This document shows positions 24 through 16,160 of a stretch of 62,363 nt of DNA, one piece after another. Numbering within the stretch: the first letter of the stretch is position 1; each line of letters begins with the position of its first letter. The DNA is taken from contig UBMP01000031.1 in the NCBI GenBank assembly GCA_900466575.1, positions 10,331 to 72,693 of the forward strand, written 5' to 3'. A program made the translations under genes and the position numbers. The notes beneath the pieces were generated by a model that was not told where the DNA came from, ran no database searches, and saw only the letters and a program-made list of their open reading frames with translations. This DNA comes from Hyphomicrobiales bacterium. GTDB lineage: Bacteria; Pseudomonadota; Alphaproteobacteria; Rhizobiales; Rhizobiaceae.

Positions 24-1007
24 ATGATGTCTCATGACCAAATGAGCGCCGACCGCGCTCGCCACTACGAAACCACCGTTGACTTGAACGCGCTTCAGCC
101 GCGTCTGTTGGCGCTGGCCGAGCAAGCAGCCACCTGCGCATTTAAAGTCCCGCAGATGATGGAGGCTTTGGGAAGAGGTCTGGAAGTGGCGGCAACGCTG
201 ATGCGCGCCGTTCCCATTCAGGAAGGCCGTCTCCTCGAACAGGGCATCGCGCTGCTTGCGGGTTACAATCCGGATCTGCGGGCTTTGACGGAAAACATCC
301 GCCTGCCCGTGACGCCTGCAGCCCTTCAGCTCGTCGAGATGAACAACGAGGCTCATTATCGCCGCCTCACGCTCGACGCTGATACCGGCGGGCGGAAAGG
401 TTACACGCCCGACATTCTCTTGGTCCACCTGTCGAAGCGGCTCGCTTACGTCGTCGATATTAAGCGCACGCTGGGCTCGTATGAAGCGACCCGGATCGTC
501 GATCTCAAAAATCGGATGCTGGCGTCATCGCTGGTCGTCCCGGATCTGCTTTACAAAGAACACCGTCGAATGACGGTCGATGAAGTCCGGGCGGTGATCA
601 TCAACGCGGACGGGCAGAAGATTGACATCGATCACGGCGTCTGGCCGCTCAGCCATCTCGACCATCTCCTGGAAATCGACGGGGCAGGCCTCGCGGTGGA
701 ATGGCTGCGAACGCAGTTTGCCTCTGCCATCGAGCGCAACTGGAAGACCGCCGTCAGGCAGCTCGCTGACAGCTACACTCGGAAACGAGATGGCGCGGGC
801 GACCGATCAAAAGCTGGAACTGACTTCGGATTGACCGCAGCAACCCTTGACCGGCGCGACCCTGACGCCGTCCGCGCCGCAAGTGATCCGGACACGTTGG
901 GTGGGTCGAACCACGGTTCGGATTCTGTCCAGCGCATCAGCGAAACGCAGCCATCGCCGTTGCGGGTCGGCTTCGCGCGCGCCCCGGATTTGGCAGCTGC
1001 GGGATAG
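24..1007 (+). CDS. Unrecognised protein with PD-(D/E)XK nuclease-like motif, first gene of an AAA+/M41 operon
   Basis: The 327-residue product is not one I can name. Residues 126-150 read as a strand pair with a proline-aspartate at 129-130 and an aspartate-isoleucine-lysine at 145-147. This spacing matches the PD-(D/E)XK nuclease core (PD, hydrophobic strand, D/E-x-K), so a metal-dependent nuclease fold is a reasonable guess. The last 70 residues are low-complexity and probably disordered. There is no signal peptide or membrane segment. The ATG at 24 has GGAG at 16-19; a second ATG at 27 could also serve. A 112-bp gap separates it from the next gene, and all four genes run the same way. That it is catalytic is inferred from the motif alone; a nuclease-like binding domain is an alternative. 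Confidence 0.6.
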   Translation: MMSHDQMSADRARHYETTVDLNALQPRLLALAEQAATCAFKVPQMMEALGRGLEVAATLMRAVPIQEGRLLEQGIALLAGYNPDLRALTENIRLPVTPAALQLVEMNNEAHYRRLTLDADTGGRKGYTPDILLVHLSKRLAYVVDIKRTLGSYEATRIVDLKNRMLASSLVVPDLLYKEHRRMTVDEVRAVIINADGQKIDIDHGVWPLSHLDHLLEIDGAGLAVEWLRTQFASAIERNWKTAVRQLADSYTRKRDGAGDRSKAGTDFGLTAATLDRRDPDAVRAASDPDTLGGSNHGSDSVQRISETQPSPLRVGFARAPDLAAAG

Positions 1008-1119
1008 CTCAGCGCTGCAAGGGCAGGCGGCGGCGAACGCCGCCCTCCTATCTCACCAACTTCTAAGCACATCAACGCCGCTTGAGCCACGCTCGCGGCG
1101 ACTGCGAAAGGGATGCCCT

Positions 1120-1536
1120 ATGTCAGACCTGACACCAAATTCTGATTACCTCCCGAAACCTGCACCTGCGCCGTCGCCGCAACCCGGTAAGCATGCCGTT
1201 GGTTCTGTGCAAACACCCTCCTGTTCGCCGTCCGAAGTGGCCGATCGGACCCGCCGGATCGTCTCGATCATGTCCCACCGCGGACAGGGGGCCGGGGTTG
1301 AGAATACGTCGCCAGATCCTGCCGTTGTGATTGCGGCGGCCATTCGTTTTGCGACAAGGCGCGGGCGCAGTCTTTCGGCGCTCCCAGCATCGATCCGCAT
1401 GCAGCTTCATCGCCTTTGCGATGGTGGTGATCCCGCAGCCTTGCTCGTCCGAGACTGGATCGAATGCAAACTCCCGGATGCAATCGCCGATGCTTTGGCC
1501 GAGACGGGTGAGGAAGCGACGAAGGGGAGGGCATGA
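1120..1536 (+). CDS. Small hypothetical protein between nuclease-like gene and AAA+ gene
   Basis: This is a 138-residue unrecognised protein. The frame is open further upstream, but ATG 1120 is preferred because it has an AAAGGG-like ribosome site and the upstream part overlaps the previous gene. The N-terminal 45 residues are rich in proline and serine. The C-terminal 90 residues look helical and amphipathic, with no catalytic motif. The stop codon overlaps the start of the AAA+ gene in an ATGA arrangement (1533-1536), so the two are probably translationally coupled and the product may be an adaptor or partner of that ATPase. The adaptor role is inference from gene order only. Confidence 0.55.
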   Translation: MSDLTPNSDYLPKPAPAPSPQPGKHAVGSVQTPSCSPSEVADRTRRIVSIMSHRGQGAGVENTSPDPAVVIAAAIRFATRRGRSLSALPASIRMQLHRLCDGGDPAALLVRDWIECKLPDAIADALAETGEEATKGRA

Positions 1537-3581
1537 TCATGCCGAGCAAAATCCAAATGAACACGGCCGACCGCATCACCCGTTACCTGCTACGCCGTCT
1601 TGAGCGAAAAGCGATCCGCGATGTCTATGAGCGCGCCGAGGCGCGCGGCCTCCTGGAGCGCAAGAGGGTTCCTTCAGCCGCCGGAGGGGAAATCATCGCG
1701 TGGCAGGTTCCGCAGACTCTGCCCGACACCCTGACTGGGCACTTTCGAACCGACGGCCTTTTGATCGAAAGGACGCTCGCACGCCCGGTTCCGCCCGACC
1801 CAGATCCGATGGCGGATCTGAGCATGGGCGAGGATTTGACGATCGGCCATACGGTTGACGGGACGCCTGTTCATGCCGTGAACGCAACCTCGTCACTGCG
1901 CGACAATTCCACGACAAAAGAAGACCGTGATGCTTTGGAAAGAGCGGCTTCCGCTTTTGGAGGCGCTGATCTCAAGCGCGACTATCTCCTGTTGCTGATC
2001 CGCTCCTGTCGTGCAAAGCCACATGTCGCCGACGCAGCCGTAGCGCTTCTGATCGCCAGGGCCATCGGTGAGACTGTGCCCGATCTGGGGTGCCTCCTCG
2101 ATGTCCTGCGACGTCCAGCGTCCGTGATCGTGCTGCAAACGGCGCTCGCCGAATTTGAGCAGCGCGTGGGCAGGATGCTTGAGAGAGGCTTGATCATGCC
2201 TTTTCCCCTCAGCCTGGTCGACGCCTTTGGAGATCGGGCGTTGAGCGGTCGTTACCGAGACCAGGAGAGTGATCGGCATCGGGTCATGACCATGTCCGGG
2301 AAAGGTCTTCGCGATATGTCGGCGCAAGCGATCCGCGACGCACTTGCCAAGGCGTCGCTGCACAAGACCATGCCGCTCTTCATCGCCGACGAATTGGCAT
2401 CGGCGGAGTTTCCACCACGTCTCGCCGCCGCCGCCGATGTGGTTTTGCAGACTGGCGGCATCGATCGGACGCTGCTGGTCGAGCTTCTTCACGTGTGCCT
2501 TTCCATTCCGCCGAAGACATCGCTGACGACGATGGAGGCCCGTGACTTCCAGCCGGGCGCTCTGGGGCTTGATGACCTTGCGCTTGCTCTGAGACCGGGA
2601 CGCACTGTCGAGGAAATCCTCACCGTTCTCACGGCGCTGACGGCAGCTACCGAAGCGGAGAAGGAGGGCGAAGATGAGGGAAGCGGTGATGGCAGCGGCC
2701 GATCGCGCAAGCTGAAGCCGCGGGGTCGTGAAAGGCTCGGACGGCTCACTCGCTCAAATCGTGGCGGCGCGTCCGATTTGACGATGCCCGAACCCCAGCC
2801 AACCGACGCCGAGCAAAAGCCCTCGACCACGAAATATCTCTCCGTCGAAACGCTCAGCGGCTACGGGCAAGCCAGGGACTGGGCGCTTGATCTCAAGGCA
2901 GACCTGTCGCTGTGGCGGCAGGGCAGTCTGGCATGGAGTGACATGTCGACGAAACTGCTGTTGAGCGGTCCGCCTGGAACAGGCAAAACAACCTTCGCAA
3001 GGGCGCTGCGCAACACACTTCAGGTTCCGTTGCTGGCGACGTCCCTCGCCACGATGCTGGAGCCCGGCTATCTCGGCGACGTTCTGAAATCGATGACGTC
3101 TGCCTTCGATACCGCTTGCGACCATGCCCCCGCAATCCTGTTCATCGACGAGTTCGAAAACATCGGCAAGAGGTCCAGCGGCGGTGACAAGAATGCCGAA
3201 TACTGGAACTCCATCGTTAACAGGATGCTCGAGTTACTCGACGGCGCGAACAGGACTGAGGGCGTCATCGTGGTGGCAGCCACCAATTTTGCCGACCGTA
3301 TCGATGCCGCGCTTCTGCGTTCGGGGCGGCTCGAGACCCGCATCGATATTCCCCTTCCAGACACGACGGCATTGGCAGGTATTCTTGGGCATCATCTCGG
3401 TGCTGATCTTGCCGCGGTCATCGGGACGCGGCCTCAGTCATCGCCGCGGACGCAAGCCGAAACTGGCAAGCTCGGCCCAGCGCATGCACCGCAAAAGTTG
3501 AGGAGGCGCAGTGAAAGCGGCCCCTCATCTGATCTGTCGTTGCATGAGGAACGGGTTGAGCCGAAGGGAGACCGAGCATGA
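1533..3581 (+). CDS. Soluble AAA+ ATPase, FtsH/VCP-like, with large N-terminal region
   Basis: This is a 682-residue ATPase. Residues 1-440 are a mostly helical region of no recognised family, ending in a charged low-complexity linker (about 375-410). The AAA+ core follows: Walker A GPPGTGKTT at about 479-487, Walker B ILFIDEFE at about 534-541, and a second-region-of-homology segment ATNFADRIDAALLRSGRLE with the arginine finger. The core resembles the FtsH ATPase, but there are no membrane segments. After the core the protein ends in about 55 low-complexity residues, and the helical lid expected next is instead encoded at the start of the following gene, which overlaps by ATGA. It probably unfolds or remodels substrates for that M41 partner. 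Role in defence or mobile-element biology is inferred from location only. Confidence 0.85.
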   Translation: MIMPSKIQMNTADRITRYLLRRLERKAIRDVYERAEARGLLERKRVPSAAGGEIIAWQVPQTLPDTLTGHFRTDGLLIERTLARPVPPDPDPMADLSMGEDLTIGHTVDGTPVHAVNATSSLRDNSTTKEDRDALERAASAFGGADLKRDYLLLLIRSCRAKPHVADAAVALLIARAIGETVPDLGCLLDVLRRPASVIVLQTALAEFEQRVGRMLERGLIMPFPLSLVDAFGDRALSGRYRDQESDRHRVMTMSGKGLRDMSAQAIRDALAKASLHKTMPLFIADELASAEFPPRLAAAADVVLQTGGIDRTLLVELLHVCLSIPPKTSLTTMEARDFQPGALGLDDLALALRPGRTVEEILTVLTALTAATEAEKEGEDEGSGDGSGRSRKLKPRGRERLGRLTRSNRGGASDLTMPEPQPTDAEQKPSTTKYLSVETLSGYGQARDWALDLKADLSLWRQGSLAWSDMSTKLLLSGPPGTGKTTFARALRNTLQVPLLATSLATMLEPGYLGDVLKSMTSAFDTACDHAPAILFIDEFENIGKRSSGGDKNAEYWNSIVNRMLELLDGANRTEGVIVVAATNFADRIDAALLRSGRLETRIDIPLPDTTALAGILGHHLGADLAAVIGTRPQSSPRTQAETGKLGPAHAPQKLRRRSESGPSSDLSLHEERVEPKGDRA

Positions 3582-4336
3582 TCAGCACTATGACACACCA
3601 CAACGTATCGGCTGCGGACACCCTGAGGCCTTTGGCGCTTCTGGCGACGGGGATGAGCGGTGCAGATATCGAGCGAGTTGTTCGTGAGGTCCGGGCCCGC
3701 TGCAGACGAAAAGGCGAACCGCTCACCTGGGAAATTCTGGAAGTAGCGTTGCGCCGGGATGACGACGGTCTTTCCGACGCCATCCGCCATCGCATCGCCG
3801 TTCACGAAATCGGCCATGCGCTCTGCTACGAACTCCCCGGCGTCGGTAGTGTCAACTCAGTGCGCCTTCACGGTCTCAGTGGGCAAACGGAAACCTTGAT
3901 TGACCGCGAGCGACTTCAGTTCCCGGTGGGCCTGCAGGACCACCTGGTTGCAATCATGGGCGGTCGCGCCGCGGAGTTTTTGATATTCGGCGGGAGAATG
4001 GTCGGCTCTGGAGGCGAGACACAGAGCGATCTGGCGCTCGCGACTGGGATCGCGATCAATCTCGAAACATCCTTCGGGATCGGCGGCGATCTCCCCCTGC
4101 TTTATCGTCCGCCGAGCACCATCGGAGACATCCTCCATTACAATCCGGCATTGGCGGAGCGGGTGCATGGAAGGCTGGAACAGGCGGAGCAGCGGGCGGA
4201 GGAACTGCTGCGTCCGCATCGCGAACTGATCGAGGCGCTGGGTGGAAAGCTGGTCGCGGCCCGTGTCCTCGAGGGCGCGACAATCAGAGCAGCGCTGGAG
4301 AGCGTTATGGCAGACGGCCACGCCGCGCCCCCCTGA
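3578..4336 (+). CDS. FtsH-type M41 zinc metalloprotease domain protein, soluble
   Basis: The product has 252 residues. Residues 16-58 resemble the C-terminal lid helices of an FtsH AAA domain (TGMSGADIERVVREV). An M41 peptidase domain follows: zinc motif HEIGH at 76-80 with catalytic Glu77, the MGGRAAEFLIFGG segment at 127-139, and the third zinc ligand as Asp151 in GETQSDLALAT. All metal ligands are present, so it should be active. FtsH is normally one membrane-anchored polypeptide with ATPase and protease fused; here the protease is a separate cytosolic protein whose start overlaps the ATPase stop (ATGA, 3578-3581). The two products probably assemble into one ATP-dependent protease. M41 assignment is strong; substrates are unknown. 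Confidence 0.85.
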   Translation: MISTMTHHNVSAADTLRPLALLATGMSGADIERVVREVRARCRRKGEPLTWEILEVALRRDDDGLSDAIRHRIAVHEIGHALCYELPGVGSVNSVRLHGLSGQTETLIDRERLQFPVGLQDHLVAIMGGRAAEFLIFGGRMVGSGGETQSDLALATGIAINLETSFGIGGDLPLLYRPPSTIGDILHYNPALAERVHGRLEQAEQRAEELLRPHRELIEALGGKLVAARVLEGATIRAALESVMADGHAAPP

Positions 4337-4453
4337 TGCGGCGTCGTTCGGAGGGCATGGCTTGTTTTGATTGGTCTTGCTTCAAGGCGCGTTGCGCACA
4401 TGTCGACATAGGTCAGCTTAAGTCTTCGGGACTTATCTCAAGTTATGCTTTTG

Positions 4454-4523
4454 CGATTCAAAACACGAGGTGCCCGATTCCAAAACATTGGCGCCGCGTT
4501 ACAGAACCGTGGAAAACCGATTC
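4454..4523. repeat. CGATTC iteron cluster 1, 21-bp period
   Basis: CGATTC occurs at 4454 and 4475 (exactly 21 bp apart) and again at 4518 (43 bp on), with a degenerate copy near 4496. After each good copy the pattern is A-rich followed by GG about 15 bp downstream. GTCGACATAGGTC at about 4403 and TCTCAAGTTATG at about 4436 lie just upstream. The same order recurs at 4766-4813. Two-turn spacing suggests a protein-binding array. The surrounding 4337-4894 shows no convincing gene. Confidence 0.55.
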
Positions 4524-4765
4524 TTGTGCAAACGCCGTGACGCGGGTGAAATCGAAGGAACACAGCATTGAAGGCTGGGCTGAAGGCCTCGACGTAGCCC
4601 GGGTTCGCGACGTGCGGGCCGCGCCGACGGGAGCGGTCTCGTTGGCGGGGGCGTATAAGCAGAGGCCCGTTATTGCCATGCTTTGCAGGCAAGTCGACAC
4701 AGGTCGTGGCAGCTTTCTGCCAACCTTATTCGATTTGGAACACGTCGTCTCAAGTTATGGAAGCG

Positions 4766-4813
4766 CGATTCTTATGTCTGGTTCGCCGATTCCAGATCAC
4801 GGTTTTACGATTC
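4766..4813. repeat. CGATTC iteron cluster 2, 21-bp period
   Basis: CGATTC occurs at 4766, 4787 and 4808, exactly 21 bp apart. As in cluster 1, a GTCGACACAGGTC-like block (about 4693) and TCTCAAGTTATG (4748-4759) precede it, so about 130 bp is an imperfect direct repeat of the first cluster. The spacing puts each copy on the same face of the helix. It lies about 80 bp upstream of the gene at 4895 and may regulate it, or be a replication, partition or transfer site. Confidence 0.55.
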
Positions 4814-4894
4814 AGAGACAAACGGCGTTTAGAAGGGGGGCAAGGTCGTAGCCCATTAAGGAGGGCCTGACGCAGTCCGCAACGGGGGAGGATC

Positions 4895-5266
4895 ATGATG
4901 ACGCGCAAGTTAAAGGAACAACGAAACGAAGAGCAACGCGTCCGCCAGGAAAAGCTAAGGGACAATAAGCGGGAAGAGTGCCGGGCCGAACGCGACCACA
5001 TGGCTCGCGCGCTTCTCTGGGTCATGATCAAGGAAACCTTGGGTGAGAAGGACCCACGCAAGGCGCTGGACCTTCTTCGGAACTCCGTAGTCGAAGAACT
5101 CGAGAAGCAGGGCTTCCATGTCAAATACGCTGAAGACGACTTCGAAGCGCTCGCTGCCAGGTACATCGCCTGTTTCCACTTCGGTATCACGCCTTTCCGG
5201 CCAAAGCCCCATCTCAAACCAAAAAAGGCTCCCAGTGGCGATCCGACGTCGGGTTCCCCATCCTGA
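4895..5266 (+). CDS. Hypothetical charged protein
   Basis: The product has 123 residues. The first 40 are very rich in Arg, Glu, Lys and Gln (a probable charged helix or coiled coil). A compact helical region with hydrophobic positions follows (ARALLWVMIKETLGEKDPRKALDLL, and a segment ending in AALAARYIACFHFGI-like sequence), then a Lys/Pro-rich tail. The family is not recognised. The start at 4895 is preceded by GGGGGAGG with good spacing. It stands alone after the iteron-bearing region and is followed directly by a long inverted repeat, which resembles a mobile-element regulator or small DNA-binding protein arrangement. Function is unknown. Confidence 0.6.
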   Translation: MMTRKLKEQRNEEQRVRQEKLRDNKREECRAERDHMARALLWVMIKETLGEKDPRKALDLLRNSVVEELEKQGFHVKYAEDDFEALAARYIACFHFGITPFRPKPHLKPKKAPSGDPTSGSPS

Positions 5267-5279
5267 CGCTTCCGCGTTC

Positions 5280-5374
5280 GTTTCTGTCAGTTTCTGCAAA
5301 CGGTGTTTATCTATAATCTGGTCTACTCCCCCCATTACTCCATAAAACGCCGTTTGCAGAAGAATCGCAGAAAC
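5280..5374. repeat. Long imperfect inverted repeat
   Basis: TTCTGCAAACGG at 5292-5303 is followed by TGTTTAT. Its near-exact complement lies at 5342-5361 (ATAAAACGCCGTTTGCAGAA), giving arms of 19-20 bp with one mismatch and one bulge around a 31-nt spacer. An outer pair, GTTTCTG at 5280 and CAGAAAC at 5368, extends the symmetry. It starts 14 bp after the preceding stop codon. It could be a terminator, a structured RNA or a relaxase/recombinase site; there is no T-tract that favours a simple terminator. Confidence 0.5.
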
Positions 5375-6270
5375 ATTACTGACTCGAAGCGGTCGGCAAA
5401 CCTCCAGTCAGTAGGCAGGTCGGGGCATCATTGCAAATTTTTGCTGGCACTGATTGGCGCGAATGGCCTTGGTGTTCAAAATGATTAAAACACATCAGAT
5501 TGGGACGAAAATTCGTCGGATGCCGAGGTACGCTGAAGCTGGTGATGCCAATGTCCGCCCAAAAAAAGGATACATAAACAATCAAAGATAGTATGTCCCG
5601 TTTCTAATAGGCACACATTCCATCAAAATGCGTCACTCGCATGGATCGCTGCATTTAATACAATCAGGGATGATAGTTCAGGCGAATAACCCCGACATTT
5701 GAGGGCTAACAAAAGATATTGAAAACGATATGCATTTTCACGGTGAACGATCCACCGGAAAACCAGCAGCCGGTGGTCCTGTCGCAAAAACTTAACATCG
5801 CCACCGCTTGTCGTGTAACCGTCCGAGGTAGGCTGCGGGATTCGGGTTTCGCGCGTATTAAGGTGCTGTGAAGGCACAAACGAACAGGCCGCACCAACTG
5901 AAGAACCCGCGGTAGCGATAAGTGGAAGGGATCAGTTTGAGCGCAAAACATTGGGCCAGCGGTCATCTTAATGTGCACCCGGCCCTTAAAGCTCAAACAT
6001 CGCACAAATCCCCTTGCCAAGCGGGCGCCATCGAGACACGACGCCACTGTGTCATGGTCAGCTTTCTCCTTGATGGCATCAAAATCTCCTCGTTTGCAGG
6101 GACGCTTGACGCCAAATTTGCTGACCCACGGAGTTTGGTCGAAGCCGAATACCGGCCTACATTTGATTGGGATTGTGGCTGCCATTTGATCGGAATGCCG
6201 GCCGGATTCATGTCGCAATCTGCACGCAAGCGTACTGCGGCATCCGCGACAATGAGCCCAGATCTACGCA
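5375..6270. other. Gene-poor stretch
   Basis: No convincing coding region is visible on either strand. A 92-codon minus-strand frame (6271 to 5993) starts in a TAATG overlap with the stop of the protein encoded at 6271-6936, which leaves translational coupling possible, but its composition is not persuasive. GC content is lower and more variable than in the flanks, as expected for transferred or decaying DNA. Confidence 0.4.
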
Positions 6271-6936
6271 TTACCGCGCCCCATGGGGCAGGTCTTCCAC
6301 TAACCCGCGCGCTCCTGGGGCATCTACGGTCCGAACCGCCGCAGGGGTCTTCGCCGGGATATGCGCGGCCGGTGGAATGTGGCCGGTGATCACAAGGACG
6401 TCGGTTACGCGTTTGCGGCGTCCAGGCGCAGCATCTGCATCAACAACCTGCCCCTTACTAAACGTGTCGCAGAACACCCAGCCGCTGACCGCCACCAGAT
6501 GTCCGGTCACTCTTACAGCACAAGGATGAGTTCGTTGCTCACCGGCCCTGTTTTCCAGGTAAGCTGCAAGGGTCGGCTTGCCCTTTACCTTCTGCCAGCT
6601 TACAGCAAATCCGAGCAGCCGGAACACCTTCTCAGTCTCAGCGAGATTCGTTCTCTTGATTAGAGGCGACCGGCGGCGGTACACCCAGCCCGACCCGTGA
6701 CGCACGAGCCTGTAGCAGTTATGAACCCGGGAGATCGGCTCCCCTGTGATTGCCGCCACTGCCGTCGGCCCGCAGAAGGCTCGCGACTTGGTGTCGTTGA
6801 CGACATCGTATAGGCGGCCTTGGACGATAGCTTTCACCGGGGCAGGAGCAATACTTGCGTCCGGCTTCTGCTCCGGCATGCGGCGAACGGAGGGGGTTGC
6901 GGAAGCGGTGGTGCCAGAGGCAGCCTTTCTTTTCAT
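6271..6936 (-). CDS. Putative papain-like/C39-like cysteine protease or inactive relative
   Basis: This 221-residue protein has a basic, Ala/Pro-rich N-terminal tail (1-35). A domain follows with Cys55 in AFCGPTAVAAITG, His146 in VTGHLVAVSG and Asp157 in the next strand. This Cys-His-Asp order and the CGPTA context match papain-fold and C39-like peptidases. There is no signal peptide, so it would act in the cytosol. The C-terminal 50 residues are Pro/Ala-rich. It is a single minus-strand gene between two repeat-rich non-coding stretches, consistent with mobile-element cargo. The fold call is moderate; proteolytic activity and target are not shown. A peptide-processing enzyme, deamidase or plasmid accessory protein are alternatives. 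Confidence 0.55.
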   Translation of the reverse strand: MKRKAASGTTASATPSVRRMPEQKPDASIAPAPVKAIVQGRLYDVVNDTKSRAFCGPTAVAAITGEPISRVHNCYRLVRHGSGWVYRRRSPLIKRTNLAETEKVFRLLGFAVSWQKVKGKPTLAAYLENRAGEQRTHPCAVRVTGHLVAVSGWVFCDTFSKGQVVDADAAPGRRKRVTDVLVITGHIPPAAHIPAKTPAAVRTVDAPGARGLVEDLPHGAR

Positions 6937-7141
6937 GATTTACGTCCTATAGTTGTTAATAAGACCGCAGAACATCTGTATAAGGGCATTTTGCCCGGCG
7001 GCTGCGTAGTTTGGGAGGAATTGCCGGGATCGCCTGACTGCGGTTGAGTCTCCTAAAAACACAGCATCCGTTTTCCGGCAATGAGGGGTTGCTCTGAAAG
7101 TTTCCGACGCGATAAGTGGCGTCGCGATAGGCGGCTCCGAT

Positions 7142-7310
7142 TGAAGTCTTCATTTTAAAGAAAATAAAAGACTTCAGTGGCTTAAGCGATGAGTGATTGA
7201 AATCATTGGCTATTTTTGGAGAAATAAAGACTACGATCCTCGGTTGTGCATCGTTGGAGTCTTTATTTTCGTCTTCGTCAGATGAGGGCGTTGGAGTCTT
7301 TCATTTTCCC
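7142..7310. repeat. AGTCTTT repeat cluster with hairpin
   Basis: Five copies of a roughly 15-bp element of consensus GRAGTCTTTYATTTT lie within 170 bp: direct at 7143-7156, 7256-7270 and 7293-7307, inverted at 7161-7175 and 7221-7232. The first two form a hairpin (TGAAGTCTT at 7142-7150 with AAGACTTCA at 7168-7176, plus ATTTT/AAAAT inside). CGTTGGAGTCTTT is repeated exactly at 7252 and 7289. The cluster sits in a 720-bp non-coding gap between a minus-strand gene and the methyltransferase gene. It could be an operator array or an origin-type iteron set. Confidence 0.6.
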
Positions 7311-7484
7311 GTTAACTATGTTTGCCGATTTATGGAAAACGGGCGGAGAAGCGGGCCGACATTCCGCCTTTTAAAGGCGAGAGGCTGCGATTTGCTTGAC
7401 CGAGTGCGAAATCGCTGCTCCCGAAGCCCGTCGATCAGATCACGTATGGGCCACAAACTGACGTCTCGGACGGAGCCCCCCGAT

Positions 7485-7510: not shown

Positions 7511-7657
7511 GACTAGCAAGCCAACGGGAGGGCACCGCCGTGCTAAGGGCCTGGGAGAAGGCATTTGTGGGACTGGAAACCGTCGAAGGATCCGTGCATA
7601 CTTAGAACGAAAGAGAAACGAATATTGAGTACGATTCGCATCAGGGTACTGAGCCAG

Positions 7658-8824
7658 ATGACCAACAGTCATAAGTCGACCTTCTATGAATTCTTCGCCG
7701 GTGGCGGCATGGCCCGGGCCGGTCTTGGCTCCGACTGGCAATGTTTGTTCTCAAACGATTTCGATTTCAAAAAGGGCGCGGCGTATCAGACAAACTGGGA
7801 CAGGGATGGCCAAACGGTTTTAAAGGTCGGCGATATTCGCAAGCTGGAAACGAAAGAGCTACCAGGAACAGCCGATCTCGCTTGGGCCTCGTTTCCGTGT
7901 CAGGACCTGTCGCTCGCGGGCGGCGGAGCGGGTCTGCGCGGGGAGCGGTCAGGCACATTCTATCCCTTTTGGGATATCATCAGACGGTTGATCGGGGAGG
8001 CGCGCGCACCGCGCGTCGTCGCGCTTGAAAATGTCACCGGTACCTTGACCAGCCATGGCGGTCGTGACTTCGAGGCCATCTGCCAAACATTCGCCGAGAA
8101 CGGTTACAACTATGGCGCCCTTGTCATCGATGCAGCCTTTTTCGTTCCTCAATCCCGACCGAGATTGTTCGTCGTCGGCATTCGAGATGAAATCGGCGTC
8201 AACGATGTTCTGGTATCGCCGGGCCCGATCGAGCCGTTTCACACACGAGGATTACAGGTTGCGTATGAACGCCTCAATGATGAGGCGAAGGCGAAATGGC
8301 GGTGGTGGAATATCCCAACGCCGCCGCATCGCAATACCGTTTTCGCCGATCTTATCGAGAACCAACCGGACAGCGTGGTTTGGCATACGCCCGCCGAAAC
8401 GGCCAAGTTGCTCGGACAAATGTCGGCTCTGAACCTCGCCAAGGTCGAAGCGGCAAAACGCGCTGGGCGCCGCATGGTTGGCGCGGTATACAAGCGCACC
8501 CGTATTGAGGATGGCGTAAAGCGTCAGCGCGCGGAAGTGAGGTTCGACGATCTTGCTGGCTGCCTCCGGACACCGGCTGGCGGCTCCTCGCGACAGGTGA
8601 TCGTTGTCGTAGAAGGCGCGCGCATTCGCTCCCGCCTGATTTCTTCACGTGAGACCGCACGCCTGATGGGGCTCGATGAAAGTTACATCCTCCCGAAAAG
8701 CTATAATGAAGCCTATCATCTGACCGGCGACGGGGTTGCTGTGCCTGTCGTCCGACATCTGGCCCAACATCTGATTGAGCCTTTGCTTGCGATAAACGAG
8801 GCGGACGAAGAAGCTGTGGCATGA
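7658..8824 (+). CDS. DNA (cytosine-5)-methyltransferase
   Basis: The enzyme transfers a methyl group from S-adenosylmethionine to C5 of cytosine in a specific DNA sequence. From ATG 7658 it has 388 residues and the ordered C5-MTase motifs: I (FYEFFAGGGMARAGL), IV with the catalytic cysteine (ASFPCQDLSLAGG), VI (ALENVTGTL), VIII (PQSRPRLFVVG) and a C-terminal motif X region (GVAVPVVRHLAQHL). A target-recognition region lies between VIII and the end. The frame is open to 7565; ATG 7658 begins directly before motif I, but a TTG at 7625 behind AAAGAGAAACG is an alternative. It leads a same-strand set with a GIY-YIG protein and Vsr, so it is probably the protective enzyme of a type II restriction-modification system. 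Confidence 0.92.
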   Translation: MTNSHKSTFYEFFAGGGMARAGLGSDWQCLFSNDFDFKKGAAYQTNWDRDGQTVLKVGDIRKLETKELPGTADLAWASFPCQDLSLAGGGAGLRGERSGTFYPFWDIIRRLIGEARAPRVVALENVTGTLTSHGGRDFEAICQTFAENGYNYGALVIDAAFFVPQSRPRLFVVGIRDEIGVNDVLVSPGPIEPFHTRGLQVAYERLNDEAKAKWRWWNIPTPPHRNTVFADLIENQPDSVVWHTPAETAKLLGQMSALNLAKVEAAKRAGRRMVGAVYKRTRIEDGVKRQRAEVRFDDLAGCLRTPAGGSSRQVIVVVEGARIRSRLISSRETARLMGLDESYILPKSYNEAYHLTGDGVAVPVVRHLAQHLIEPLLAINEADEEAVA

Positions 8825-8933
8825 CCGTTGCCGCCTCTTCGGTTACGACAAATCGGAGTTCAGCCATTTGGGCTCCGCGTGCAAGCCGGTATAGTCCGCC
8901 ATCATTCATATGAAATCGATTCGGAGCGGCTGA

Positions 8934-9668
8934 ATGGCGGGAGAGCATAAACCCGACGATATCCACATCCCGCCGTTTGAGACAGAAGATCTTCGGCGAA
9001 ATCTCGTTACCTTGCTCGACAGTGAGTTCGACGATCCGGTAGCAGGTGAGAAGAGACGGATCGGCAATTTTCGTTGGGGCGTTTATCTATTCTATGATTA
9101 TGACGGCGAGCCGATCTACGTCGGGCAGACCAACGAGATGCTGCGCACCCGCATCAGAAGACATCTGACCAACCAGCGCACGGACGCGGTGGCCATGAGC
9201 GTTCTGGACCCGTTCGAAGTCTACGAAATCGAAATTTATCCTTTGCCGCAGTTTCAGGAGCTGACCGGCGGCCCTCAACGGGCTGTCGCCAAAGCCCATC
9301 TCGATGCACTGGAGTATGCCGTTTACGGCAAGGCCATTGCGGCAAGCCAGTTCAAGGCGATCCTCAATGAAAAAGATCCGCCAGCACCCATAGTCGACGT
9401 CGAAATCCCGCTTTCATTTCGGATGCGCGTCGTCTCGGACGAGGTCGCAAGGATCCGTTCGCATCCGGATTTCCGGATCGCACGTCGCGCGCTCATTATC
9501 TCTCGCCTTGCCCAGGTGATTTCAGAAAGAAAGGTGCAGGGCGGCCTGAGGAGGGTCTTGCTAACCCAGGCCAAACGCCTACAATGGCTCGCTGATCGTC
9601 GCTATCAAGCGCTCGGTGGCGCAGCGTCTATCGAGACAGGGACTGGCGATGAAGGCGAAGGCGACTGA
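8934..9668 (+). CDS. GIY-YIG nuclease, probable restriction endonuclease
   Basis: The 244-residue protein carries a GIY-YIG domain at about 47-145: GVY at 49-51, YVG at 62-64, an arginine-rich helix (Arg72, Arg75), the metal-binding Glu127 in ALEYAVYGKAI, and Asn in AILNEK. All GIY-YIG catalytic positions appear filled. The rest is helical and lacks the zinc finger or UvrC regions of repair GIY-YIG proteins. It lies 109 bp after a C5 methyltransferase and overlaps a vsr gene, the order expected for a type II restriction enzyme; Eco29kI-type enzymes are known GIY-YIG restriction nucleases. That it is the cognate endonuclease is inference; a homing-type or repair nuclease is less likely. Confidence 0.75.
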   Translation: MAGEHKPDDIHIPPFETEDLRRNLVTLLDSEFDDPVAGEKRRIGNFRWGVYLFYDYDGEPIYVGQTNEMLRTRIRRHLTNQRTDAVAMSVLDPFEVYEIEIYPLPQFQELTGGPQRAVAKAHLDALEYAVYGKAIAASQFKAILNEKDPPAPIVDVEIPLSFRMRVVSDEVARIRSHPDFRIARRALIISRLAQVISERKVQGGLRRVLLTQAKRLQWLADRRYQALGGAASIETGTGDEGEGD

Positions 9669-10110
9669 TAGTCGCCGCAGCGCGACGATGCGGGCGGTCA
9701 AGTCCGTTGATACGACGCCAGAGATGATTGTGAGGCGGTTGGCCCATCGCCTTGGTTATCGCTATCGTTTGCACAAGAAGAACCTTCCTGGGAAGCCCGA
9801 TCTTGTGTTTGTCGGTCTTCGTAAGATCGTCTTTGTGAACGGCTGCTTCTGGCACGGTCATAATTGTGCAAGGGGATCCAGACTTCCCAAAACCAACCGA
9901 GAATATTGGCAGCGCAAGATCGCTGGAAATGTTGCTCGTGATCAAGCCACTTTGGTGGCGCTGGAAGCCGCCGGCTGGTCAGTGTTCACCGTCTGGGAGT
10001 GTGCAACCAAGGTCTCGGAACGTTCCGCGCTTGAGCGTCGGCTTGTAGAGTTTTTGTCTAATGAACTGCTATATGGTGACACAGCTAGTGGAGCATATGT
10101 CAGGTTATAG
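9649..10110 (+). CDS. vsr: Very short patch repair endonuclease (Vsr)
   Basis: The enzyme nicks DNA 5' of the T in T:G mismatches that arise when 5-methylcytosine deaminates, starting very short patch repair. The 153-residue protein has the full Vsr signature: RSATMRAVKSVDTTPEMIVRR, the catalytic aspartate in PGKPDLVF, the zinc-site segment VFVNGCFWHGHNC, TNREYWQRKI and GWSVFTVWEC. ATG 9649 is chosen because it gives the normal length; the frame is open to 9616 only through overlap with the previous gene, and the genes still overlap by 20 bp, suggesting coupled translation. It fits the linked C5 methyltransferase, whose product makes such mismatches likely. Confidence 0.93.
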   Translation: MKAKATDSRRSATMRAVKSVDTTPEMIVRRLAHRLGYRYRLHKKNLPGKPDLVFVGLRKIVFVNGCFWHGHNCARGSRLPKTNREYWQRKIAGNVARDQATLVALEAAGWSVFTVWECATKVSERSALERRLVEFLSNELLYGDTASGAYVRL

Positions 10111-10148: not shown

Positions 10149-11345
10149 TTATGCAAACGGTGACTTCATCCCGTCGCGGACCTCGCTGATCGCTGACAAC
10201 AGCGATCGGACTTTGACGCCGCCCTTGGCAGGATAATCCTCAGTGCCGGCACCAACAACAATGCGGGTTTCGATTGCAAGGTCATCGCAAGCGACATGAA
10301 ATCCTCGCTCCACCTGTGGCGCGCTTGCCCTCTTTACCTCAATAGCAAGCTTAGGCTTGCCCGCGTGTTCGAACACCAAGTCAATCTCGGCTCCGTCCGC
10401 TGTTCGATAGAAGAAGGGAGCAGCATCTGGTCCTGCGGCATCGATGAGGGTTTCAACTACAAAGCCCTCCCAACTGGGCCCGACAATCGGATGGCCCAAA
10501 AGCTGGTTTAGTGTGCCTATTTCTAAAAGCGCGTGCACTAGTCCGCTGTCGCGGACATAGATTTTTGGGGATTTAACGAGCCGCTTTCCGAAATTGCCGC
10601 TCCATGGCTGGAGCCGGCGAACCAGCATCAGATCGACAAGCAGATCGATATAGCGGCCGATCATGGGTGCCGAAACGCCGAGCCCTTGGGCCAACCGGGC
10701 GCTATTGAGCGTACTGCCTTGTCCGTTGGCCAACATCGTCCACAAGCGACCTATCGTTGCCGCAGGCATGCGCGGCGCAAACATCGGTACATCGCGTTCC
10801 AGGTAGCTGCGGATGAAGGCTTCTCGCCAGATGTAGCTGTCTTCGTCGTTTGCTGCCGTCAGACTGTCGGGAAATCCACCGCGGAGCCAAAGCTGGTCAA
10901 TCTCAAGATTGGACGTGACCGCTTCCTCGGCACTGATGGAAGGCATCTCAAGATAGATGATCCGGCCTGCGAGCGTTTCGGAAACCTGCTGAATGAGGTC
11001 CAGCGATGCCGAGCCGAGCAACAGGAATTGCAGGGAGCGCTCACCATTTGCGCGACGGTCGTCGACAATTCCCCGCAGTTCGGCAAACAGATCGGGAAGC
11101 CGCTGCACTTCGTCAAGAATGGTCAGATGGCCTGCCTGGGCCTGCAAGAAGGCCTCTGGATCTTCCAGTTTTCGGCGATCGGCAGAACGTTCGAGATCAA
11201 GATAGAGCGTCCCAGGCAACTGGTCGGCAAGTTTGCGGGCAAGTGTTGTTTTGCCGATCTGTCGTGCGCCAATCAATGCAACCACGGGCGCTCGCCGGAG
11301 GGCTTGCTGGAGTGCCAATTCGATTCGGGTGCGCGGTATCAACAT
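10149..11345 (-). CDS. AAA ATPase with DUF4143 domain
   Basis: The 398-residue protein belongs to the AAA_14/DUF4143 family. It has Walker A GARQIGKTTLA at about 26-36, Walker B LTILDEVQRLP at about 75-85, and a sensor segment LLLGSAS. The C-terminal half contains the DUF4143 region with a PD-(D/E)XK-like core (EIDLVFEHAGKPKLAIEVKR). Members are frequent in mobile regions and near toxin-antitoxin and defence loci; their biochemical role is not settled. It runs convergently with vsr, ends 39 bp from it, and stands alone. The start ATG at 11345 precedes the P-loop by the usual 26 residues. The family call is firm; function is not. Confidence 0.88.
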   Translation of the reverse strand: MLIPRTRIELALQQALRRAPVVALIGARQIGKTTLARKLADQLPGTLYLDLERSADRRKLEDPEAFLQAQAGHLTILDEVQRLPDLFAELRGIVDDRRANGERSLQFLLLGSASLDLIQQVSETLAGRIIYLEMPSISAEEAVTSNLEIDQLWLRGGFPDSLTAANDEDSYIWREAFIRSYLERDVPMFAPRMPAATIGRLWTMLANGQGSTLNSARLAQGLGVSAPMIGRYIDLLVDLMLVRRLQPWSGNFGKRLVKSPKIYVRDSGLVHALLEIGTLNQLLGHPIVGPSWEGFVVETLIDAAGPDAAPFFYRTADGAEIDLVFEHAGKPKLAIEVKRASAPQVERGFHVACDDLAIETRIVVGAGTEDYPAKGGVKVRSLLSAISEVRDGMKSPFA

Positions 11346-11442: not shown

Positions 11443-14172
11443 TTATCGGCGTGATCCTTTCCTCGGCCGCGCCTCATCTGACTGTTTTAGGTGTCGTGCG
11501 CGGCCCGCCCATGACTCAGGAAACCAGGTTCTTGCCTTTGCAAATGCGACGAAGTCGGCGCCGCTCATGGGACGGGCCAACGCGTAACCCTGCAGTGTGT
11601 GACAGCCAAGGTTGCGCAAGATCTTCACATGTTCGAGTGTCTCCACGCCCTCTGCAACGATTTCAATGTCGCGCGACCTGCCTATGTCAATTATGGAAGC
11701 GACAAGGGCGCGCTGCGATTGCGAGTTGACGACTGGCTGAATGATTTCGCGCGCGATTTTGAGGCGCCGCGGCATAAGTTTCAAGAGAGTGACGATCGAA
11801 GCGCGGCCGGTGCCGAAATCGTCAATTTCAACCTCAACACCTAAATCCTTCAATTGCTCAGTTCGCCGCAAAAGTTCCCCATCATCCGCTTCGAAGGAGA
11901 TCGATTCCAGCAATTCGATGGAAATGGTGCCCGGCTTCAGGGCAAGTTCGCGCAGCTCGTGGATGAGTTTGTCGTCCCCCAGTCGCTGCGCAGAAACGTT
12001 TACCGAAAATCTTGGGACCTCAATGCCGTTGGCGAGCAAGCGAATGTACTGGTCTCTAGCATGGCCTAAGACGATAGAGTCGATTTTGGAAACAACGTGG
12101 AGGTTCTCCGCAGTCTTCAAAAATTTGTCCGGCGTAAGGGTCCCTTTCTCTGGGTGTTGCCAGCGCGCCAAAGCTTCGAACCCATTGATTTCAAGGCTCG
12201 TCGCGTCGAACTGAGGCTGGTACCAGGCGATAAACTCCTGCTGTTCTATCCCCCGCAGAAGATCATCGGCGCACTTCTTGGTGTTGAGCGCGACCTCCTT
12301 CAGCTTCGCAGCAAACCGTTCTACCCGATTGCGGCCTTTGCGTTTCGCCTCGTAGAGCGCGATGTCCGCATTTATAAGAAGCTGTTCCGGCCGATCCACT
12401 CCGATGGTTCCCGTCGCCAAGCCAACGCTTGCGCCAATTCGGCACTCATGTCTCTCATAGGGGATCGGTCGCGCCAGCGCTTCAACAAGCCTTTGAGCGA
12501 GGGCCAAGTAGTCGCGGCTTTCGTTATCCTCGCCTGACAGGACGACGAATTCGTCTCCACCGATGCGGGCAATGAAGTCGCCTTCATAAATGTTCTGCTG
12601 CAATATCTCGGCAGTACGTTGCAAAATGAGATCGCCTGCGGCGTGACCGAACGTGTCGTTGACGTCTTTGAAGCGATCGAGATCCATATGCAGCACAGTC
12701 ACCTGCCTGCCAGCGGCATAATCCCGGATCACCTTGTCGAGGAAGCGCCGGTTGGCCAGTCCAGTCAGGGGGTCCTGAAGGGCAATGCGCTCCAGACCTT
12801 CTCGAGCTTCTTCCAAGCGCCGATTTTGTAGTTCAGCTCTCGATTTCGCCTCCCGAAGCTCGTCCTGCATTTGCACGTCTTCAGAGACGTCCCAGTTCAC
12901 GCCGATGATCTTCTTGTGCCCCGAGCTATCCTGATAGACGGTACCGAAAGCCTTGATATGGCGGATGCTCCCATCACGCTTGCGAATTCTAAAGCCGGTT
13001 GCATATGGCTCTCTCCCCTTGATGGCGTTGTCGAAGCGGCGTACAGCGTCTGCAAGATCGTCAGCATGCAAGGCGTCTTGCCAATCGGCATATGTGCAAT
13101 CGTCCCGATCAGCGGGAATGTCATACAAATCGCGCATCCGCTTATCCCAGTGCAGAATCTGTGCAGAAACGTCGAACTCCCAGACTCCGATCTTCGACGT
13201 CTTAAGCGCGAGTTCCAGCCTGTGGGTGAGCGCGGCTAACTCATCCTCGCGCGCTTGCAGGGCCGTCATATGATCCTGCCGATCGGCCATAAGCTTACCC
13301 GCCCAAACCATAGGCGCGAGAAAGAGCAGCGCGATCGAGAGCAACGTCATGCGCGAGACATACTGGTCGCCATTACCGGGCCAGCCGCCGACAGGAGCGG
13401 CATAAAGCGTCCAGTCGTCGTAGCCAAGGTTGATCGTCATCATGATTGGGCTGCCCTGAAGGAGCATGGGATCGCCGTAGAACACTGAAGGCTTGGGATG
13501 TGTGGGGCCGGTCGAGGCGATGGTCACACGCAGCCGGGCCGACGCGTCACTCAGTCCACTATCCGTGTAGAGCTTTTCGAGATCGATGACAGCAGACACG
13601 ATGCCCCAGAAGTGTTGGTGTTCACCACCACCTCCACTGATCAACGGATACCGCGCGATTAATCCCGTACCCCCTTGCACAAGGTGAACCGGACCCGTGA
13701 GCAACGGGCGTCTTGTTTGCTGCACTGTCAGTGCTGCGTCGCGTTGCTTTTCCTCTTTAAGATAGTCAAGGCCAAGTGCCTGTTCGTTTCCCTTCAATGG
13801 GTAGACCATCGCGACCTTCATATCAGGCGCGATCGCCACGTCCCTAATTTGCGGGGCCTCCGCCAAAATGCGGGCCGTCAACGGCTCCCATTGCCGCGGT
13901 GTGATGGTGGTGTTTTCGGAAATGGCATTACTCAGCCCTTGCACAAGAGCGACGGTTCGATCTATCGAGCCTTCGAGCTTGGCCTTCAACAGGCTCAGGC
14001 TCTGAACGGCGTCTGCCTTCGCACGATCCTGATTGATCTTATTGCGTTGAAAGTCGACGTAGGTCGCGAAAAAGCTGATGGCGATCGCCGCAATCATTGC
14101 AGGGACGAAATACACCAGACGAGCCTTTGAAAAAGGCATACGGATCGCCGCGAGCTTCAACTGTTCCGGCAT
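11443..14172 (-). CDS. CHASE-PAS-GGDEF-EAL cyclic-di-GMP protein
   Basis: The 909-residue inner-membrane signalling protein makes or breaks down cyclic di-GMP. Order: a membrane helix at about 16-36, a periplasmic CHASE-like sensor to about 270, a second helix near 285, a short coiled coil, a PAS domain (WEFDVSAQILHWDKRMR, with PAC segment), GGDEF with intact active site RIGGDEFVVL, and EAL with FEALARWQHP, SVNVSAQRL, IDDFGTG and AEGVET. Both catalytic motifs are intact, so it may be bifunctional. Start 14172 is chosen for its AGGA site and the membrane helix directly after; the frame stays open 237 bp upstream. It is a single gene. Confidence 0.92.
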   Translation of the reverse strand: MPEQLKLAAIRMPFSKARLVYFVPAMIAAIAISFFATYVDFQRNKINQDRAKADAVQSLSLLKAKLEGSIDRTVALVQGLSNAISENTTITPRQWEPLTARILAEAPQIRDVAIAPDMKVAMVYPLKGNEQALGLDYLKEEKQRDAALTVQQTRRPLLTGPVHLVQGGTGLIARYPLISGGGGEHQHFWGIVSAVIDLEKLYTDSGLSDASARLRVTIASTGPTHPKPSVFYGDPMLLQGSPIMMTINLGYDDWTLYAAPVGGWPGNGDQYVSRMTLLSIALLFLAPMVWAGKLMADRQDHMTALQAREDELAALTHRLELALKTSKIGVWEFDVSAQILHWDKRMRDLYDIPADRDDCTYADWQDALHADDLADAVRRFDNAIKGREPYATGFRIRKRDGSIRHIKAFGTVYQDSSGHKKIIGVNWDVSEDVQMQDELREAKSRAELQNRRLEEAREGLERIALQDPLTGLANRRFLDKVIRDYAAGRQVTVLHMDLDRFKDVNDTFGHAAGDLILQRTAEILQQNIYEGDFIARIGGDEFVVLSGEDNESRDYLALAQRLVEALARPIPYERHECRIGASVGLATGTIGVDRPEQLLINADIALYEAKRKGRNRVERFAAKLKEVALNTKKCADDLLRGIEQQEFIAWYQPQFDATSLEINGFEALARWQHPEKGTLTPDKFLKTAENLHVVSKIDSIVLGHARDQYIRLLANGIEVPRFSVNVSAQRLGDDKLIHELRELALKPGTISIELLESISFEADDGELLRRTEQLKDLGVEVEIDDFGTGRASIVTLLKLMPRRLKIAREIIQPVVNSQSQRALVASIIDIGRSRDIEIVAEGVETLEHVKILRNLGCHTLQGYALARPMSGADFVAFAKARTWFPESWAGRARHLKQSDEARPRKGSRR

Positions 14173-14500
14173 TGGTGTTCCTGGGTTCACTTCGTCACAG
14201 ACCCTGCTAGAAACGCAAAACTTCATTAAGATATCATTCAAGCCGGTGTCGGCGTTCTGGGGGTATTGGTCGGTGGAACGCCGTCGTTTATCCACCCTGA
14301 GTTGCTCGAAAACTAACAGAAACTTTGGATCAGGCGCTGACATCGACCGGACTCGAGGCCGACGCCAGCACCTGACTGCTCTCCTCTTCCGGCGGGGGTT
14401 GGGGGGCACGCCAGGATAGAGAAGATATAGTGATTATGCTATTTTTAGTGGCTTGCTCGTGGCTTACGAAATTGTTTTCTCGAATTGAAAGTGCAGGCCA

Positions 14501-14561: not shown

Positions 14562-16160
14562 TCAGGCGGCGTGATATCGTTGCGCCGAGGCGTCGCGCTC
14601 TGACTTCGACTTAAACCTTGACATGAGCCTCTGCAGGGAGACCGCCTCGGCGGCAAGCGAGGCCATGGCGGCTGACGATTCCTCAACGATGGCCGCATTT
14701 TGCTGCGTGTCCCGACCGAACCCGGACATGGCCTGGTCGATGACGGCAAGTCCGCTCGCCTGGTCGCTGGTATTGGTCGTGATCCGCGCCACGGCAGAGC
14801 CGATCGCCTCGATCTCGCCGATGATCGACTTCAGTGCGTCGCCCGCATCGTTGACTAGGCCAACGCCGGCTCGCACCTGTTCGCCCGACGTGCTGATCAG
14901 CGACTTGATTTCTTTGGCCGCCTGGGCGGAACGCTGGGCAAGTTCGCGGACTTCGGTCGCCACGACCGCAAAGCCCTTGCCGGCTTCGCCGGCGCGCGCC
15001 GCTTCCACGCCGGCGTTCAGAGCGAGGAGGTTGGTCTGGAACGCGATCTCGTCGATCACACCGATAATGTTGGCGATCTGGTTAGACGAGCCCTGAATCC
15101 TGCCCATGGCATCAATGGCATTGTTGACCACCAGTCCGGAGCGATTGGCCCCGTCTGTCGCCTTGGCGACGGTTGTGCCTACATCGCGTGCGAGACCGGC
15201 CGTCGAGGAGACGGCGGATGTCAGGTGTGAAAGCGCGCCCGACGTCTCTTCAATCGTCGCCGCCTGACGCTCCGACCGCGTCGAAAGATCGTGGTTGGTA
15301 TCGCTAATTTGCCGGCTGCCGACATTGATCTGGACGATCACGTCGTTGGCTTGCCTGATCAGGGCTTCCAGCCCATCGGCGGAGACGTTGTAAAGCGTCC
15401 GGAGATTGTCGAGATCGCCTTCAAGCGGCTGCGTGACACGATAGCCCACATTGCCGTCGGCGAGCTTGTTGAGGGCTTCGCCGATGACATCGACCGCAGC
15501 CGAAACGGAGGCCGCCTCGCGATTGCGTTCGGCCTCGTGAGACTGGCGGTCGCGTTCGGCCCGTTCCGTCGCGGCCTCGATTTCGCGCGTCGCGATTTCG
15601 GCCCTTGCCTGCGCCGTCTGCGCCTGGGCGACCGCATCATCTGCAGAAACAAAGGCTCTGGAGAGCGCCACGGTCAGCGGGATGAGAACAGCCGTCTGCA
15701 AGACCAGAACCACCGCGTGCAGGACCACCCGCATGAAGTCGGAGTCGGTCGGAAATACCGCGAACGGCATGACAAAATAGAGAATGACGTGGTGGACAGC
15801 GACGAAAGCCGAATAGGCCATGATCGCACGCCAGTCGATCCATGTGGCGCAGATCGCCAGGGAGGCAAAGAAGTACATGTGAATGTCGATCTGCAGCGGC
15901 GAGCCGCGGAACGAATACACCATGAGCGCGACGGTAGCCGCATGAGCGGTCGCGGTCATCATACGTGTCGCCGATCCGGTGGGATCACGGAACCACGCAT
16001 AGGTGGAAGGCACGGCGATCGCGCAGGCCGCGGCCACCGCCATCCAGTCGAAACTGTCGGCGCCGAACGCTTCCCGCGCGGCGATCAAGGACACGTTGAG
16101 CCAGAGTATGGCAATGATGCCTCGACCGGCGACGCTACGCAGCTTTTCCAAAGATGCCAT
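14562..16160 (-). CDS. Methyl-accepting chemotaxis protein with multi-helix membrane sensor
   Basis: The 532-residue chemoreceptor signals to the CheA/CheW array. The N-terminal 175 residues contain about five or six hydrophobic segments with little periplasmic loop, so the ligand is probably sensed in or near the membrane. A long coiled coil (about 178-225) and a HAMP-like segment follow. The signalling hairpin tip [37 protein letters not shown] is intact. No CheR-binding pentapeptide is present; the tail is basic. ATG 16160 has GAGGAC upstream and overlaps the stop of the small secreted protein encoded just before it by 26 bp, so the two are likely co-translated. Confidence 0.93.

Follow-up and report, generated by a model that had tools for sequence, protein, structure and literature searches.

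The sgiAT genes of SGI1, which are related to ietAS of pTiC58, encode an AAA-ATPase antitoxin and a protease toxin, i.e., this ietAS relative is a toxin-antitoxin system (PMC5006074), and ietAS itself is counted among anti-phage systems in a second source (PMC10286901). In the gated pairs (HamMAB, AVAST, and Canu), a metallo-beta-lactamase nuclease is encoded with a trypsin-like or caspase protease, and the protease is reported to trim and activate the nuclease (PMC12799240, published 2025). Here we describe a module of five genes that encodes a predicted PD-(D/E)XK nuclease-like protein together with an FtsH-like AAA ATPase and a separate M41 zinc protease, both predicted to be soluble. It lies in a stretch of 62,363 nucleotides (the window; G000:C7:10331-72693) of the 5.14-Mb assembly of a Hyphomicrobiales bacterium (Rhizobiaceae), and it is probably an undescribed defense or plasmid-maintenance module; a literature search (titles and abstract openings, with most subscription journals outside its coverage) found no description of this gene set. 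The genes and their overlaps are:

24..1007, forward strand: PD-(D/E)XK nuclease-like protein (predicted), 327 amino acids; core ~15-257, disordered linker ~262-310, conserved C-terminal tail VGFARAP
1120..1536, forward strand: small conserved protein, 138 amino acids, ATG at 1120
1533..1536, forward strand: ATGA overlap of the small protein and AAA genes, 4 bases
1533..3581, forward strand: soluble AAA+ protein, 682 amino acids; predicted degenerate first AAA-like domain ~129-381, active AAA domain ~415-631, variable tail
3578..3581, forward strand: ATGA overlap of the AAA and M41 genes, 4 bases; in 58 of 84 split pairs the AAA stop is part of an ATGA
3578..4336, forward strand: M41 zinc protease chain, 252 amino acids; residues ~16-60 hold the second half of the AAA lid, absent from the AAA chain
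4895..5266, forward strand: fifth module gene, small charged protein, 123 amino acids

As in ietAS and sgiAT, an AAA ATPase gene stands beside a protease gene in a plasmid- or island-borne setting, and the AAA domain of the module matches the IetA models of PADLOC (best E 5.8e-23), although the match is limited to that domain (IetA 117-254 of 330) and the NCBIfam IteA model gives 81.3 bits against a cut-off of 510. The module differs in that its protease is of the M41 family rather than a subtilase (IetS), and in that it adds a nuclease, two small genes, and a split lid. With the gated pairs, it shares a nuclease gene paired with a protease in defense loci, the nuclease typically upstream, whereas the combination of a PD-(D/E)XK-like nuclease with an ATP-dependent M41 protease involves unrelated families on both sides. 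The module is thus a candidate nuclease-protease system whose enzymes are both unrelated to those of the gated pairs and whose protease is ATP-driven. PADLOC-DB 2.0.0 holds no match for the nuclease, the M41 chain, or the fifth protein at E 0.1, and it matches the small protein only at E 0.021 and the AAA protein only through its AAA domain.

An earlier note on this stretch had described the first four genes with their ATGA overlaps at 1533 and 3578, all of which are present as stated; the fifth gene, the upstream repABC genes, the break inside the AAA lid, and the predicted degenerate first AAA domain go beyond it. To survey the module, an alignment of the nuclease was scanned against 84,980 species genomes, giving 92 confirmed loci, 80 of which were used. 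These 80, the two copies of the window's own genome, ten plasmid loci (the nuclease occurs at 15 places in 11 plasmid records, ten of which were taken with one place each), and one viral contig form a set of 93 nuclease loci, in which named loci include Rhizobium, Shinella, and Sinorhizobium. Gene order was examined in the 80 loci of this set with at least 4.2 kb of downstream sequence, the 13 shorter ones being set aside. The homologues do co-occur, as the earlier note had proposed to check, and the order nuclease-small protein-AAA-M41 is kept in 79 of these 80 loci; the remaining locus, L012, has undergone rearrangement around insertion elements. The fifth gene is also kept near the operon, either downstream or upstream on the other strand.

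The second module copy of the window's own genome, on contig 37, has the same order, with the fifth small gene after the M41 gene, and adjoins a large serine recombinase. Comparison of the two copies gave ratios of nonsynonymous to synonymous substitution (dN/dS) of 0.19, 0.28, 0.17, 0.23, and 0.11 for the five genes in order, and all five are therefore under protein-level selection. Together with the recurring gene order, this second copy argues that the module is not a chance arrangement.

At the limits used, searches of Pfam, NCBIfam, PADLOC, and PHROGs gave no match for the nuclease-like protein, nor is there a meaningful sequence match in the PDB; the small protein likewise has no Pfam match. 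E67, E72, D130, D145, K147, and R148 are invariant among 26 relatives, residue 145 being once E instead of D in the plasmid set, and the strict nuclease motif is kept in 92 of the 93 copies, the lone exception beginning at a contig end. The AlphaFold model (mean predicted local distance difference test score, pLDDT, 81) contains a helix that carries Glu, a strand with D130 at its start, one with DxK at its end, another helix, and one more strand, so that the Glu helix, the Asp, and the (D/E)xK of a PD-(D/E)XK enzyme are all present in the predicted core topology. Among its top 30 fold matches in the PDB, 27 were counted as PD-(D/E)XK enzymes or complexes holding one, including SgrAI, R2 endonuclease, arenavirus endonucleases, Cfr10I, Bax1, Can2, and McrBC, which we take to be PD-(D/E)XK enzymes. 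The conserved residues, the model topology, and the prevalence of such enzymes among the fold matches (individually weak, best E 6e-3) support the prediction of a PD-(D/E)XK-type nuclease-like protein, as the earlier note had suggested and proposed to check by structure prediction. The protein ends in a tail like VGFARRP (GFARxP) in 88 of 93 copies, behind a variable, often acidic, disordered linker; in the other five, the tail reads GFAS or GFAG (two) or is cut or interrupted (three).

The AAA and M41 chains match Pfam AAA (PF00004, E 1.1e-30) and M41 (PF01434, E 5.3e-13), both over the cut-off. The zinc ligands claimed by the earlier note are in place, with HEIGH at M41 residues 76-80 and an invariant D151 in SDLxxAT that is presumably the third ligand, by analogy with FtsH. 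Across the loci, HExGH is present in 81 of 84 M41 open reading frames (ORFs), SDLxxAT in all 84, and Walker A in 84 of 89 AAA ORFs. The best 19-residue hydropathy means of the window chains are 1.36 (AAA) and 1.17 (M41) versus 2.36 in the real FtsH of the same genome, which indicates that both chains lack a membrane helix, i.e., are soluble, in agreement with the earlier note; values above 1.8 occur in eight of 90 AAA and two of 84 M41 ORFs of other loci.

The AAA chain aligns to positions 198-345 of the FtsH family model and the M41 chain to positions 356-595, the latter also aligning to residues 352-607 of the genome's own FtsH, lid motif included. The first helix of the lid closes the AAA chain and the remainder, with (T/S)GADIERxVREAR, opens the M41 chain. 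Judged from these alignments, the two chains jointly cover one FtsH AAA-plus-protease unit and the break lies inside the AAA lid, which the M41 chain probably completes in trans. The likeness to FtsH thus comprises an AAA domain with Walker A and B and two Arg-finger positions, a lid with (T/S)GADIE, HExGH plus Asp, and the combined span of the two chains, whereas the module differs in being soluble, in being broken inside the lid into two chains, in carrying an extra degenerate AAA-like domain, and in its NCBIfam FtsH scores (98.9 and 47.3 bits versus a cut-off of 600).

In none of the 93 nuclease loci do AAA and M41 share one ORF (both ORFs were compared in 84). With the order kept as above, the earlier note's observation, an FtsH-like enzyme that is soluble, made of two pieces, and linked to a nuclease-like protein, proves to be right and more general than the sequence of one window could show. 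A frameshift or pseudogene origin of the split was rejected, as was one programmed frameshift common to all copies: the split is present in all 84 compared loci with frame relations of 60, 22, and 2, the ATGA is frequent at the AAA stop, and all five genes have low dN/dS. By contrast with the split pairs, eight divergent loci (L106-L108 and L111-L115, in seven genomes) have a nuclease of this kind beside a single-ORF AAA-M41 fusion; at four of their fusion junctions, and likewise in fused plasmid relatives, the sequence continues through the lid without a break. These nuclease-adjacent fusions suggest that the split chains should act as one machine. Two changes are required to place the fused rows on a tree of the nuclease, in which the branches of L114 and L115 are long and unreliable. 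The module is also a natural case of an AAA+ lid divided between two polypeptides, stable across many genera and with fused relatives as controls, and it would allow study of how the ATPase and protease halves of an FtsH-type enzyme communicate.

The region before the AAA domain has no P-loop in the alignment, and its sequence profile found no AAA protein in the PDB. The best PDB matches of the AAA model (pLDDT 69) are tandem AAA proteins of the p97/Cdc48/Rix7 type, covering 493-584 columns across two AAA domains in the top 50, which is moderate evidence for a predicted degenerate first AAA domain. As in p97/Cdc48 and Rix7, two AAA-like domains would then stand in one chain; unlike in those proteins, the first appears from the alignment to have no P-loop, and there is a protease partner.

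Within its own family (394 genomes), the nuclease occurs in 75 genomes and 42 of 109 genera, with up to three copies, the first domain of the AAA protein in 76, and both in 62. Among 385 genomes of the class, only the window's own genome matched, and 398 genomes of the phylum gave four matches, own included, all from the same family. The module is patchy in the family and often chromosomal: 13 nuclease places in eight genomes lie on chromosome-sized contigs of 3.95-4.84 Mb. Confinement to plasmids was rejected on this ground, and consistent occurrence as housekeeping of plasmids or integrative and conjugative elements, which the earlier note had named as speaking against its view, is not what we found. 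A phage gene set was also rejected, as PHROGs gave no match at 0.01 for the nuclease, the small protein, or the fifth protein, a search with a type-2 nuclease found no phage record, and a viral contig provides a single locus.

To compare the genomic surroundings, 20 kb of DNA around the nuclease (less in two cases) was taken from each of 20 genomes, together with control regions of the same contigs at a distance of 150 kb; the flank regions partly share genomes with the 80 genome-scan loci of the 93-locus set, so the two sets are not independent. After removal of recognized module genes, all 184 flank proteins and a random 184 of the 345 control proteins were scanned with PADLOC at E 1e-12. 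Gene calls cover 74% of the flank regions versus 85% of the controls, which works against finding matches in the flanks. Even so, the flanks matched 179 + 104 models (111 + 73 proteins) and the controls 6 + 4 (111 + 73 proteins), these being counts of models, many of which one protein may match. The strongest flank matches are BrxC (E 0, two loci), HamB (E 0), and a type III methyltransferase (E 0), followed by GajB (8e-211), ZorD (5e-208), type I and type IV restriction, and MzaE, while control matches comprise mad3 (in both halves), DEDDh, Csa3, subtilase, and others. When one large flank protein was hand-picked per locus in 17 of the 20 loci, eight matched PADLOC at 1e-20 or better: BrxC (2), a type I restriction endonuclease, a type III methyltransferase, a GajB-type helicase (1.1e-28, partial), HamB, and MzaE (2). 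On the basis of these matches, the module resides among defense genes, as the earlier note had anticipated in proposing a search for such enrichment.

Overall, we interpret the nuclease and its own ATP-dependent protease as a defense module in which the nuclease is under protease control, with a probability of about 0.5. Judged from the alignments, the gene set is conserved, and nearly all copies keep the residues needed for catalysis by the nuclease, the ATPase, and the zinc protease. The kept order and residues, the nuclease-adjacent fusions, the excess of PADLOC matches in the flanks, and the patchy presence all argue for this interpretation, and the genomic context in particular supports a putative role in defense well. 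The AAA and M41 chains would form a soluble ring machine with a degenerate first ring, an active second ring, and an M41 chamber, and the remaining part of the ATPase lid would come from the M41 chain. A conserved tail on a flexible tether, encoded in the same operon, is arranged like a protease substrate or docking peptide, and the ring protease may take the nuclease as its substrate through the GFARxP tail. In healthy cells, the protease would remove or restrain the nuclease, following ietAS-like logic, and an infection signal would lift this restraint, whereupon the nuclease would cut phage or host DNA. Restraint is slightly favored, since FtsH-type proteases mostly degrade, and the opposite sign, in which cleavage by the protease would activate the nuclease, is by analogy nearly as likely. 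A more tentative proposal, to which we give somewhat less than even odds, is a new type of immune module in which a soluble double-ring AAA+ metalloprotease, whose ATPase lid the protease subunit completes in trans, would gate a PD-(D/E)XK nuclease through the conserved tail of the nuclease. If true, ATP-dependent proteolysis would be the switch of a DNA-cutting defense, and ATPase activity would be coupled, through the split lid, to the docking of the protease chain.

A number of observations weigh against a defense module of this kind. The ratio of PADLOC counts overstates the gene excess, and the excess itself shows residence in defense-rich accessory regions and not a defense role, as controls 150 kb away may be core genome; defense islands also hold toxin-antitoxin and mobile-element genes. 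None of the fold matches of the nuclease reaches 0.001, the AAA model is of moderate quality with root-mean-square deviations near 20 in its p97 matches, because the domain arrangement differs, and HExGH is absent from three of the 84 M41 ORFs. The window copy and five other loci lie near repA. Finally, there are exceptions to the pairing. Among 29 nuclease places without a match to the AAA first domain, 11 were re-examined: eight have the fused AAA-M41 gene, L109 is uninformative, as its contig ends after 1.7 kb, and L110 and L116 have more than 5 kb downstream with no AAA or M41 match. Conversely, 24 AAA places have no nuclease match; the nine of these that were re-examined (L117-L125) all lack a match to the nuclease profile. 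Both groups of exceptions indicate that the nuclease-protease pairing is strong, not absolute.

The main alternative is an ietAS-like addiction system of plasmids or islands, in which the nuclease would be a toxin and the AAA protease an antitoxin that destroys or blocks it, so that cells losing the element would be killed by the freed nuclease. The window copy directly follows repA, repB, and repC on its contig (Pfam support), and repA lies within the fetched DNA of at least six of the 93 nuclease loci (L004, L007, L009, L012, L014, and L040; strict threshold). The match of the AAA domain to the IetA models fits this explanation, as does sgiAT, described as an AAA-ATPase antitoxin with a protease toxin (PMC5006074). 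Yet the six loci are a small share of the 93, the 13 places on chromosome-sized contigs are hard to reconcile with it, the toxin of ietAS is the protease, a subtilase and not an M41 enzyme, and the flanks are richer in defense genes than addiction alone predicts. We consider addiction unlikely, if still the most serious competitor. For the defense role suggested by the earlier note, the strong association with known defense genes stands, while the repA-near loci keep an ietAS-like plasmid maintenance in play. The two roles may coexist, by analogy with ietAS, which is counted as anti-phage and has a relative that is a toxin-antitoxin system.

Some relatives of the module have other genes in the position before the protease. 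In L117 (reverse-complement 3366-4901) and L118 (2526-4076), the AAA + M41 pair without a nuclease match is preceded by another AAA ATPase, Lon-like by eye, so the slot before the pair seems to be exchangeable. In L123, a nuclease-like homologue (3334-4263) adjoins the AAA and M41 genes and seems by eye to have lost its DxK residues; it is possibly a dead paralogue. The nuclease homologues of L110 and L116 lie at 6328-7335 and 5161-6051, respectively, both on the reverse strand. On the Acidiphilium multivorum plasmid (L102), an AAA relative at 4228-6828 seemingly has no M41 domain, and the preceding gene weakly matches the NERD nuclease (E 0.0014, below the cut-off); a sequence link between our nuclease and this upstream gene of Acidiphilium was sought and not found. 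On the Sulfitobacter dubius plasmid (L101), the gene at 3525-4082, before the fused AAA-M41 gene, matches PDDEXK_5 just under the cut-off (E 5.9e-5), with a type II restriction gene nearby. A GIY-YIG reading of the Paracoccus yeei neighbor was made by eye only, has no Pfam support, and was rejected.

Such partners bear on a second alternative, in which the protease is the defense effector: AAA-M41 would degrade phage proteins or essential proteins of the host, with the nuclease-fold protein as a DNA sensor or a second, independent effector. AAA or AAA-M41 relatives with NERD-like or PDDEXK_5-like upstream genes (both below cut-off), the Lon-like gene of L117 and L118, and the homologue of L123 with its apparent loss of catalytic residues are consistent with it. 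The nuclease catalytic residues are nevertheless kept in 92 of 93 copies, so cutting matters, and the conserved tail on its long linker suggests interaction with a partner, which makes a protease effector rather improbable. Least probable of all is a role outside immunity and addiction, in plasmid or island housekeeping or transfer regulation, e.g., in turning over a repressor or replication protein, for although repABC, a serine recombinase, and commonly a DUF3102-like gene are neighbors, many copies are chromosomal and the excess of defense genes would be left unexplained.

The DUF3102-like gene (~390 amino acids; Pfam match to DUF3102 below the cut-off) is a frequent sixth member, e.g., L127 6093-7283. 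It stands directly upstream in 67 of the 93 loci, elsewhere in 11, and is absent from 15, some of which have little upstream sequence; the loci without it include four of the six with repA. In the window genome's own copy L005, a gene likened to it by eye lies downstream at 8542-9519.

On the 3' side of the window copy follow further genes of defense type:

7565-10110: DNA cytosine methyltransferase, then GIY-YIG and Vsr genes; best PADLOC model of the methyltransferase DruM2, E 7.9e-163
10149-11345, reverse strand: PDC-S01 candidate family protein, PADLOC E 3.2e-86

Two large genes adjoining the PDC-S01 candidate (11443-14409 and 14562-16160, reverse strand) have no PADLOC match at 1e-20. On Rhizobium acidisoli plasmid pRapFH23a (L100), a single-gene soluble AAA-M41 lies between an ietAS-like pair of S8 peptidase and ATP-binding protein genes and a gene resembling KwaB of Kiwa.

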